Shown here: positions 6,539 to 14,601 of the stretch, piece after piece
Numbering within the stretch: position 1 is the stretch's first letter
How the letters are laid out: each line of letters starts with the position of its first letter
Assembly (NCBI RefSeq): GCF_041860085.1
Contig: NZ_CP124747.1
Location: 5,270,001 to 5,334,000, forward strand
Direction of reading: 5' to 3'
Length of the DNA: 64,000 nucleotides
Source: Schlesneria sp. DSM 10557
GTDB lineage: Bacteria > Planctomycetota > Planctomycetia > Planctomycetales > Planctomycetaceae
Translations under genes and position numbers: made by a program
Notes under the pieces: generated by a model
Databases searched by the model: none
Seen by the model: only the letters and a program-made list of their open reading frames with translations
What the model was told of the DNA's origin: nothing

Positions 6539-7594
<1,056 letters not shown>

Positions 7595-11945: not shown

Positions 11946-12222
11946 TCCGCGTGGGCCACCGCCCGTTCGGCACGGTAGGACTCTCGGCACGTCGCTCTGT
12001 TAGCGGGGCCCCTTCGGCATGATCAACGCCGTGTGGGGCGATGCAGGGAACTATTCAACGAGCGGCCCGTGGAGGCAGTTGCCGAAGTCGCTATTCGTGC
12101 TGCTGACGGACGCGATCGTCGCTCGCTATATAGCGAGAAGTACCGCAACGGAGTACCGTAATCAGGCCTGCAGTCATCGATGTTCTATTCGCCGGGCAGG
12201 GACGCTCTATCGCGGAGCTGAA

Positions 12223-13182
12223 ATGTTGCGAAAGCCAACGGTCTTCATTGGGTCTTCCTCGGAAGGGCTGAAAGTCGCTCAGGCGCTTGAGGCCGCCTTC
12301 GGTCAGCGAGCGGAAGTCGAAGCATGGAACTCTGGTGCCATTTTTCAGCGTCACCAGGACTTTCTGACCTCATTACTCAACACCGCCAGTCTCTATGAAT
12401 TTGCGGTTCTCATTTTTACCAAGGACGATATCAGTGTGTCGCGCGGCAAGACGTATGCGGCCGCGCGGGACAATGTGCTGTTCGAGTTCGGGCTCTTCCT
12501 GGGCAAGCTGGGACCGCGGAGAGCGTTTACTCTTGTCGAAAGAGATCTCAAGATTCCCACCGATCTGCTGGGAATCACGCTCGATCAGTTCAGTCGCAAA
12601 AAAGACGGTCGTCCGACCGCCGAGTTTGCAGGAACAGCGGATAATATCGTCTCGCAGATCGTTACTCGGCATCACAATACGACCGAGTTTTCCCATCTGC
12701 CCGCGACGGCACTGGCAATCGGGTATTTTCATAACTTTCTGTCGCGCGTCCTGGATCAGTTAGATGATTTTGAGCCCGTACTCGTCGGCCGTCGCCGGTT
12801 CGATTACAGCACCTTTACGCTCCATGTCATTGTCCCGGATCGACTGGACGTTCTGGACCAGGATAAGTTCAAGAAGATTCTGCGCGGGCTGGAACCGGTG
12901 ACGGTCAAGTGCCGACTTCGCGAGTTTCCCTTTTATATCAAGGGGATTCCTGCCGAGGGGACGACACATCTCGACTTGTTCGACATCCCCACAACGATGC
13001 GGGCCTCCCGAGAGACGATTTGTCGAGTCTTTCGTGAAGAATATGTCGGAGTGAATGATCTCCAGGTGCAGGCCGAGCGGCGCGAAGTATCGAACTTCGA
13101 GAGAACACTTCAGCTTCTGCTGAATGAGCACCCCCGATGGCAGCGTTACGTGAAGTTCGTCTATCTGTCCGATTTCCTTTGA
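12223..13182 (+). CDS. TIR-STING protein (CBASS-type effector), no adjacent cyclase
   Basis: This 319-residue protein has two domains. Residues 4-125 match the TIR family of CBASS/Pycsar effectors (PF10137): VFIGSSSEGL at the start, RDNVLFEFGLFLGKLG (82-97) containing the likely catalytic NADase Glu88, and IPTDLLGIT. Residues about 158-312 match bacterial STING: ATALAIGYFHNFL (161-173) corresponds to the GLAxxYYxxYL helix of STING, LFDIPTT (252-258) to the ligand-contacting segment, and a terminal EVSNFxxxL helix follows. In known systems cyclic dinucleotide binding to STING polymerises the protein and the TIR domain destroys NAD+, stopping phage growth by killing the cell. I start it at ATG 12223 because GGAG lies 5 bases upstream; the open frame upstream is not needed. 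No CD-NTase gene lies on either side, which is unusual. Confidence 0.85.
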   Translation: MLRKPTVFIGSSSEGLKVAQALEAAFGQRAEVEAWNSGAIFQRHQDFLTSLLNTASLYEFAVLIFTKDDISVSRGKTYAAARDNVLFEFGLFLGKLGPRRAFTLVERDLKIPTDLLGITLDQFSRKKDGRPTAEFAGTADNIVSQIVTRHHNTTEFSHLPATALAIGYFHNFLSRVLDQLDDFEPVLVGRRRFDYSTFTLHVIVPDRLDVLDQDKFKKILRGLEPVTVKCRLREFPFYIKGIPAEGTTHLDLFDIPTTMRASRETICRVFREEYVGVNDLQVQAERREVSNFERTLQLLLNEHPRWQRYVKFVYLSDFL

Positions 13183-13230: not shown

Positions 13231-14601
13231 CTAGAACAGTGCCGTGATGGGATTCCCATCGACAATGCGATGCGGCCGGCCGAGCGGGTCGTGAAGTTCT
13301 GCGTCGGGATTGATTCCCAGGCTATGGTAGATCGTCGCCAGCATGTCTTCCGGTGAGACCGGGTTGGATGCCGGGTAGGCCGCATCTTTGTCGCTGCTGC
13401 CGTAGACCTGTCCGCCACGGATCCCCCCTCCCGCCAGGATCGCGGATTGGACGCGCCCCCAGTGGTCACGCCCCTGCGTCGAATTCAGCATGGGCGTTCG
13501 CCCGAACTCACCGTACATGGCTACCAGGGTTTCATCCAGCAGGCCTCGTTCTGACAGGTCGTCCATCAGCGCCGCGAATCCGGGATCGAGGGACTTCAGG
13601 CAATACGGTTCGGTCAGCATGGACGTTCCCGCGTGGTTGTCCCACACGTTCGACACAACGCCGTTCGCGAAAACGGTCATCCACGAGATCGTTACCAGCC
13701 GCACACCCGCTTCCACCAGTCTGCGCGCCAGAAGCATCGATTCGCCCCATTCGTTCCGGCCATACTTGTCGCGTAGTGCCGGGTCTTCCTTGTCCAGATT
13801 GAAGGCATTCTGGGCAACGGAAGACGTGAGCATTCGGACCGCTTGATCACGATAAAGATCAATGTTTCGGGACGCCGCCAGTTGGTCGTAGCGTCGTTCC
13901 ACCTGATCGATCGTGCGGACCAGTCCCTGACGTGCCAGCAGTCGTGTGTTGCTCAGGTCTTCCAGCAACGACATCGTGTGAGTTGGCTTTTCCGTTGAGC
14001 CCCCCGCTGCGGCCGCGATTTCCATGGGATCATGGGCCGCACCGAGCCAGCCAGCGTGAGTTCCCGAGTAGGTGACGCCGCTATGACCGATGGGGCGAGG
14101 GATGGTCACGGCAGCAGGAAGGACCCCCGGCTTCGAGAAGGCCGAGACCATCGACCCCAGGTTCGGTGCATCCAGACGATTGCGCTGATTTCGAGGGACG
14201 ACGAGCGTATTGTTCACGCGTCCGGTTAACGTCCGATAGACGCTCGGTTCATGATTGTCGCTGTCGTGGGTTAATGAGCGGACGATGGCCAGCTTGTCGG
14301 TGTGCCGCGCGAAGTTCGGCATGTGCTCGCAGACGTCGATGCCGGGCGTCACCGTCTGGATGGGCTTGAACAGGCTACGCATGGCCGACGGGGAATGCGG
14401 CTTCATGTCCCACAGATCCTGCTGAGGGGGGCCACCCCAAAGGTAGATCAAGATGCAGGACTTTGCTTTACCAGTGGGAGTACTGGCAGCCGAGGGGGAG
14501 CCGTTAGCACGCAGTTGGTCGGCCCGCAGCAGTTGAGGAAGCGTCACGGCCCCTAAGCCGAACTGACCCAAACGTAACATGGCGTCGCGACGGTGCAACA
14601 T
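13231..14601 (-). CDS. DUF1501 protein, sulfatase-like fold, Tat-type leader
   Basis: This 456-residue protein belongs to DUF1501, a planctomycete-rich family with an alkaline-phosphatase/sulfatase-like fold. A twin-arginine-like leader (RRDAMLRLGQFG) opens the protein. Family landmarks include LIYLWGGPPQQDLWDMKP, VRSLTHDSDNHEPS and GEFGRTPMLN followed by GRDHWG. In the family these residues are thought to form a metal site, but activity is not established. Most DUF1501 genes sit beside a DUF1549/DUF1553 gene; this one does not. Twin palindromes lie 42-75 bp upstream of its start and may control it. It converges with the TIR-STING gene 48 bp away. Confidence 0.92.
   Translation of the reverse strand: MLHRRDAMLRLGQFGLGAVTLPQLLRADQLRANGSPSAASTPTGKAKSCILIYLWGGPPQQDLWDMKPHSPSAMRSLFKPIQTVTPGIDVCEHMPNFARHTDKLAIVRSLTHDSDNHEPSVYRTLTGRVNNTLVVPRNQRNRLDAPNLGSMVSAFSKPGVLPAAVTIPRPIGHSGVTYSGTHAGWLGAAHDPMEIAAAAGGSTEKPTHTMSLLEDLSNTRLLARQGLVRTIDQVERRYDQLAASRNIDLYRDQAVRMLTSSVAQNAFNLDKEDPALRDKYGRNEWGESMLLARRLVEAGVRLVTISWMTVFANGVVSNVWDNHAGTSMLTEPYCLKSLDPGFAALMDDLSERGLLDETLVAMYGEFGRTPMLNSTQGRDHWGRVQSAILAGGGIRGGQVYGSSDKDAAYPASNPVSPEDMLATIYHSLGINPDAELHDPLGRPHRIVDGNPITALF

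Follow-up and report, generated by a model that had tools for sequence, protein, structure and literature searches.

A TIR-STING gene standing alone in a planctomycete genome: a possible one-gene guard against foreign c-di-GMP

In the current view, a bacterial STING supplies the second of the two parts of an alarm; what, then, is the alarm in a clade that has this part only, keeps its ligand pocket and occurs where no maker of the ligand was found? The question is raised by a TIR-STING gene of Schlesneria sp. DSM 10557, found in a window of 64,000 nucleotides (the whole stretch of DNA analysed here; features in Table 1). An ORF check confirmed its ATG at 12223 and its length of 319 aa. The reading frame is already open from an upstream ATG at 12019, and the start at 12223 is supported by Met1, which is invariant in the 29-row clade alignment A1, although in four of its rows (P0004, P0005, P0012 and P0017) the called N-terminus extends further upstream. 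The gene stands alone, 278 bases downstream of the preceding gene and with an opposite-strand gene facing its 3' side, and no match to a sigma-70-type promoter was found upstream of it. The initial annotation had named its neighbours a glycoside-hydrolase-like gene and a DUF1501 gene; the second label holds, and the first is unproven because a Pfam search with the 828-aa neighbour gave nothing at E 1e-3. A defence island around the gene was considered and rejected: in a PADLOC scan of 34 of the 47 non-overlapping ORFs of the window (one of them swapped for the opposite-strand ORF 6539-7591), the matches were mostly kinase-type and no cyclase was among the best 25 of the 37 families matched. 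These matches, to PD-T4-6 and also to PglW and mads, probably represent ordinary protein kinases.

Table 1. Features of the TIR-STING locus, with positions in the window.
Feature	Position	Strand	Basis
Upstream neighbour, 828 aa	9459..11945	+	no Pfam match at E 1e-3; outside any CBASS operon
GGAG, likely ribosome-binding site (putative)	12214..12217	+	direct reading, five bases before ATG
TIR-STING gene, 319 aa	12223..13182	+	ORF list, profiles, sequence match
TIR (CAP12/Pycsar type) NADase domain, residues 7-124	12241..12594	+	PF10137, 93.4 bits, above cut-off
Glu88 codon	12484..12486	+	counterpart of the catalytic E84 in TIR-STING of Sphingobacterium faecium
Prokaryotic STING domain, residues 160-297	12700..13113	+	PF20300 (prok_STING), 81.8 bits, above cut-off; profile 1-137 of 137; fold
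Beta-strand lid motif R233-E234-F235, class I (c-di-GMP) type RX(Y/F)	12919..12927	+	alignment; model of low confidence at residues 230-233
Asp254 codon	12982..12984	+	aligns with the Asp that contacts guanine N2 in solved bacterial STINGs
Convergent downstream neighbour, a DUF1501 protein	13231..14601	-	PF07394, 297.6 bits

The gene is a genuine TIR-STING of the Cap12 type, as its profile matches, predicted fold and active-site residues agree. Both domain profiles matched above their cut-offs (Table 1), and the PADLOC TIR effector model PDLC00729 gave 271 bits against the 319-aa protein, while PDLC02371 (Pycsar TIR) gave 86.6 bits over residues 4-141. The equivalog cut-offs of the NCBIfam Cap12 models were not reached, NF050172 giving 231.6 bits in a full-length match and NF050171 153.9 bits, each against a cut-off of 450. 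By sequence, the nearest solved proteins are 9lmq of Epilithonimonas lactis (E 1.3e-53) and 7un8 of S. faecium (E 6.8e-42), each annotated as CD-NTase-associated protein 12. The same two entries ranked top when the AlphaFold2 model (pLDDT 77.7) was compared by Foldseek and VIA-align, the rows of the latter mainly spanning residues 93-319, and the bacterial STING fold was thus recovered. Glu88, which had been proposed as the likely catalytic residue from the reading of motifs, proved to be the counterpart of the catalytic glutamate of the S. faecium protein. Moreover, all nine NAD-site residues of that protein, at the positions given in PMC9402430, are identical here in the alignment: F6, S10, W33, F37, L47, R78, N80, E84 and D110 correspond to F8, S12, W35, F41, L51, R82, N84, E88 and D114. 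Eight of the nine positions vary in no more than one of the 29 clade rows; the ninth, D114, is occupied by Asp in 22 rows, by Glu in 6 and by Asn in 1. The identity proposed by the initial annotation was thus borne out by profile search and structure comparison alike.

The ligand pocket also appears conventional. The marks of the class I, c-di-GMP-specific STINGs are a lid of the form RX(Y/F) and a guanine-contacting Asp (described in PMC8748872). R233, F235 and D254, together with F172, match the solved c-di-GMP-binding TIR-STINGs and are identical in 29/29 clade rows. As residues 230-233 of the lid have a pLDDT below 50 in the model, the claim for the pocket rests on the alignment, from which we infer that this TIR-STING would bind c-di-GMP through a class I lid. 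With ligand residues of the published c-di-GMP class, there is no need for the different ligand or threshold suggested earlier. At the filament interface, R307 of S. faecium corresponds to E302, a reversal of charge, and A309 to P304; both residues are required for full activity of the S. faecium protein. Likewise, the calcium-site residues D260 and E264 of the E. lactis protein are replaced by R263 and C267. Judged from these residues, ligand and chemistry look conventional, and details of filament control may differ.

Where might c-di-GMP, or any other ligand, come from? The host genome is a single contig of 7.07 Mb, and it was searched as a whole with four CD-NTase-type models, PF18144, PDLC00784 (CdnE), PDLC00774 (DncV-like) and PF01909, which found no CD-NTase in the window or in the rest of the genome. 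PF18144 gave no match up to E 10. Because this model alone is insufficient (it misses the CdnE of S. faecium, which matched PF01909 alone, at 20.5 bits), the PADLOC and PF01909 searches were added. The two PADLOC models gave nothing up to E 1 in the host, while they matched strongly in the genomes of three loci used as positive controls (L045, L047 and L061). With PF01909, four matches were obtained up to E 1: GlnD, an HD-domain protein and an RlaP pair, as labelled by Pfam, and an amidohydrolase-like frame, read by eye. PADLOC run on three loci with PF01909 matches found no cyclase. The RlaP pair, at about 2.63 Mb (L109), is a tandem of two genes for RNA-repair nucleotidyltransferases of the RlaP type. 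The absence of a cyclase beside the gene and in the window, noted from the first reading, was thus confirmed, and the suggestion of a cyclase encoded elsewhere finds no support genome-wide from these four models, a result that covers these kinds of model only. No GGDEF domain (PF00990) was found in the host genome at E 0.001, and at E 1 there was just a SecD protein (E 0.94). The sole cyclic dinucleotide synthase found is one for c-di-AMP, a diadenylate cyclase whose DAC domain (80.7 bits) is fused to a PTS EIIA-like domain at about 3.915 Mb. The gene for this fusion (L110:562-1920) adjoins an ORF that looks RuvA-like by eye.

The lone state is not confined to this locus. A protein search returned 28 further clusters with 47-84% identity, followed by a gap in score from 341 bits (P0029) to 237 bits (P0030), and in a 78-row tree the window protein and these 28 clusters form one clade of 29 with support of 100/100 and a stem of 0.86. 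The clade members with DNA context are four: the window, L003 (a Chthoniobacterales bin), L004 (Variovorax sp. dw_308) and L044 (Burkholderiales bacterium 8X). None of them has a CD-NTase in its flanks, and PDLC00784 and PDLC00774 are empty in all four genomes, that of L003 being a metagenome bin. The same holds for the flanks of a further locus, L005, and, by these two models, for its genome; the only weak matches to them came from two genomes outside this set, G396 and G401 (E 0.01 to 0.4). Local displacement of a cyclase, which the initial annotation itself had named as a way to refute its reading, was therefore rejected: no adjacent cyclase was found in the three other clade members, which are 49-52% identical, the closer P0002 (84%) lying outside this comparison. 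No neighbour gene is common to the five loci, except an oxidoreductase-like ORF present at differing distances in L004, L005 and L044; other flank matches besides STING were shadow frames of the STING gene.

Among 59 other STING loci, CdnE lies within the flanks of 33, a DncV-like cyclase within those of 15, and neither in 11, of which one (L026) is at a contig edge and some are on short contigs. Mapped on the tree, the no-cyclase label is dispersed and changes 10 times, which is no better than for shuffled labels; solitary STINGs thus arise outside the 29-row clade too. L046 (Verrucomicrobiota, on a contig of 4.9 kb) and L041 (Bacteroidota) form a second fully supported lone-STING pair, with no cyclase in the fetched DNA. 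At L055 the fetched flanks are also cyclase-free and a DncV-like cyclase is encoded elsewhere in the genome; a caspase-domain protein (Peptidase_C14, L055:6489-7478) lies immediately upstream of the TIR-STING there. The 15 loci with a DncV-like cyclase beside TIR-STING are L006, L007, L010, L012, L027, L035, L036, L037, L040, L047, L048, L052, L057, L060 and L061. At L047, the one locus on which the E2 models of PADLOC were run, the gene between TIR-STING and the cyclase matches them.

The initial annotation had considered sensing of the cell's own c-di-GMP, remarking that it is a normal messenger in many planctomycetes. The remark is correct: in the host's family, GGDEF occurs in 98 of the 101 genomes sampled, in 96 of them over the cut-off, and usually in more than one copy. 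The Schlesneria host, however, is one of the three family genomes without GGDEF, and thus has no GGDEF enzyme to supply c-di-GMP of its own. The other two (G435 and G446) have no STING. Of three genus mates in the sample, G461 and G480 have strong GGDEF matches and G428 two weak ones. As this last genome, which is without STING, has weak matches only, the loss of GGDEF may be older than the TIR-STING gene. The other two carriers of the clade that are not metagenome-assembled, G393 and G397, belong to one Variovorax-like genus and are thus not independent. In that genus, 55 of 61 genomes have a GGDEF match (48 at E <1e-30, median 6); the STING search covered these two of the 61 genomes, and both carry it. 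The single GGDEF match of G393 belongs to a CHASE2-adenylate cyclase protein, and the single above-cut-off match of G397 is a receiver-GGDEF protein that is very probably inactive, given that its signature reads ARDKF. Overall, no intact GGDEF over the cut-off occurs in the 14 STING-carrying genomes; the above-cut-off matches are only those of G393 and G397, both inspected, and among eight matches below the cut-off inspection covered the one of the host genome. The association of STING with lack of GGDEF comprises few independent cases, namely the host (G000) and then G393 with G397. Nevertheless, the absence of intact GGDEF in carriers, set against its presence in relatives, speaks against sensing of own c-di-GMP.

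The TIR-STING gene is intact and appears to have been acquired horizontally, travelling alone. PF20300 occurs in a single genome out of 392 in the phylum sample, and likewise in a single one out of 170 in the family, among which are 15 of the genus. The GC content of the gene against its surroundings is 0.555/0.676 in L004, 0.526/0.668 in L044 and 0.541/0.578 in the window, and its presence in three host groups, with GC below that of the host, suggests repeated successful transfer. Moreover, the gene is under purifying selection in the L004/L044 pair (dN 0.28, dS 1.89), the other five pairs being saturated. A mobile carrier of the gene was looked for and rejected: no phage record matches the protein, 13 of 72,556 plasmid records match the TIR part only and none covers 80%, six viral contigs match the TIR part only, and no convincing flanking repeats were found at the gene. 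Diguanylate cyclases are often borne by mobile elements (described in PMC10672970). Among the 72,556 plasmid records at least 5000 matched a GGDEF query, as did 160 among 50,697 phage records, the "plasmids" including many megaplasmids and several of the "phages" being bacterial contigs by their titles or sizes; a CdnE relative is present in 50 plasmid records.

How might a lone TIR-STING then be of use? In three reports, TIR-STING without its cyclase halts the growth of E. coli owing to the c-di-GMP that this host makes (PMC8748872, PMC9402430, PMC12421889), and the arrest is relieved when the ligand residues D252 or R233 of PcTIR-STING are changed (PMC8748872, PMC9402430). A dedicated cyclase would thus be unnecessary where c-di-GMP is present. 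Furthermore, NAD+ cleavage by the E. lactis TIR-STING is switched on by c-di-GMP only, not by c-di-AMP (PMC12421889). Together with the toxicity in E. coli, this argues that a lone class I TIR-STING would kill hosts that have diguanylate cyclases and would be silent otherwise. We propose that the protein works without a dedicated cyclase: c-di-GMP would be bound via the class I lid, filaments would form, NAD+ would be cleaved and the cell would be killed or arrested. Being toxic in any cell that makes c-di-GMP, the gene would therefore persist only in hosts without diguanylate cyclases, where c-di-GMP would be non-self and a single gene could be both sensor and effector. The trigger might be a plasmid, an integrative element or a phage that encodes a diguanylate cyclase or a CdnE producing c-di-GMP, or else the material of another bacterium. 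Given a silent host and mobile elements with diguanylate cyclases, we judge a guard against foreign c-di-GMP to be the most likely explanation. We tentatively regard the gene, at somewhat less than even chances, as acting on its own as a suicide guard that is restricted to cells without c-di-GMP and set off by c-di-GMP of foreign origin. The general form of the idea, in which bacteria without c-di-GMP signalling use one transferable cyclase-less TIR-STING as a direct sensor of non-self c-di-GMP and answer that of an invader by suicide, is more doubtful.

The main rival to a guard against foreign c-di-GMP is a synthase acting in trans, that is, a CBASS-like pathway that has been split, with an unlinked enzyme (a divergent CD-NTase, an mCpol/Cas10-like polymerase or a new kind) making the ligand on infection. 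We consider it unlikely, but it deserves serious weight. Such a separation is indeed seen at L055, the PADLOC cyclase models are far more numerous than the two tried genome-wide, and PF00990 could miss an mCpol, since these proteins are described as nearly without the GGDEF motif (PMC12657218). Against a synthase in trans, the four models find no CD-NTase in the host, where the PF01909 matches have other labels, the two PADLOC models are empty in the genomes of L003 (a metagenome bin), L004 and L044, and no neighbour is common to the three host groups. It is also conceivable that the gene is a relic or a selfish gene, which lost its cyclase, has no function and is tolerated because the host makes no c-di-GMP. 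The lack of a partner and of an operon, and the scattered presence within the family, are compatible with this, but a relic would hardly be full-length and keep all active-site and ligand residues in a clade reaching down to 47% identity; dN lies well below dS in the sole unsaturated pair, and the three host groups with their GC differences suggest successful transfer. A relic is thus improbable.

A trigger of another nature, such as a component of a phage, some nucleotide that is not a cyclic dinucleotide, or simply concentration, could be invoked from the altered filament and calcium-site residues, which imply that control of assembly may differ; it would leave the invariance of the c-di-GMP pocket unexplained, and we regard it as decidedly improbable. 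In most bacteria that have c-di-AMP, its production is constant, and sensing of it would therefore kill the host cell. This weighs against the possibility that the protein senses own c-di-AMP, for which the host encodes the DAC fusion. c-di-AMP does let the E. lactis TIR-STING build spiral filaments, but NAD+ cleavage there needs c-di-GMP (reported in PMC12421889), and binding of c-di-AMP by MySTING is abolished, which PMC8748872 ascribes to a clash with the lid Arg equivalent to R233. Sensing of own c-di-AMP thus appears highly improbable.

If a guard against foreign c-di-GMP is indeed encoded here, c-di-GMP, the messenger of most relatives of the host, would become a mark of non-self, and the direct sensing of foreign cyclic dinucleotides, thought to be an animal trait, would exist in bacteria as a counterpart of animal STING, which senses bacterial cyclic dinucleotides directly. 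The loss of diguanylate cyclases would moreover be predicted to open the way for the gene. The founding 2020 paper on bacterial STING reportedly already remarked on STING-bearing bacteria without the usual c-di-GMP signalling. The architecture and chemistry of TIR-STING are already known; as far as the open-licence PMC literature shows, where we recognised no description of a lone bacterial TIR-STING, what is new is a lone, clade-wide TIR-STING in c-di-GMP-free bacteria.

A CD-NTase in the same operon, as in CBASS, was not found here with the four models. The TIR-STINGs of CdnE-STING CBASS (Cap12; 7un8 of S. faecium and 9lmq of E. lactis) are the nearest known proteins, whereas in our case no CD-NTase adjoins the gene or was found in the genome, and the protein belongs to a clade of its own on a long, fully supported branch. 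Moreover, the calcium-site residues of E. lactis are absent and one filament contact of S. faecium is charge-reversed. The TIR-STINGs with a DncV-like cyclase, accompanied by an E2 gene in the case of L047, have the same effector architecture but carry in their flanks the cyclase that is missing here. The Pycsar TIR effectors (PycTIR) have the CAP12/Pycsar TIR domain in common with our protein, but the Pycsar sensor is one for cyclic mononucleotides, whereas here it is STING. Panoptes (mCpol plus effector) is likewise a cyclic-dinucleotide defence outside ordinary CBASS; as described in PMC12657218, its ligand restrains the effector and its synthase adjoins, neither of which is seen at our locus. 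The nearest printed idea that we recognised is the proposal made for the standalone STINGs of choanoflagellates, which are likewise without a cyclase partner, bind 3'3'-c-di-GMP and are proposed to detect foreign bacterial c-di-GMP (PMC12424679); those proteins are eukaryotic, whereas ours is a bacterial TIR-STING in cells that are apparently free of c-di-GMP synthases.
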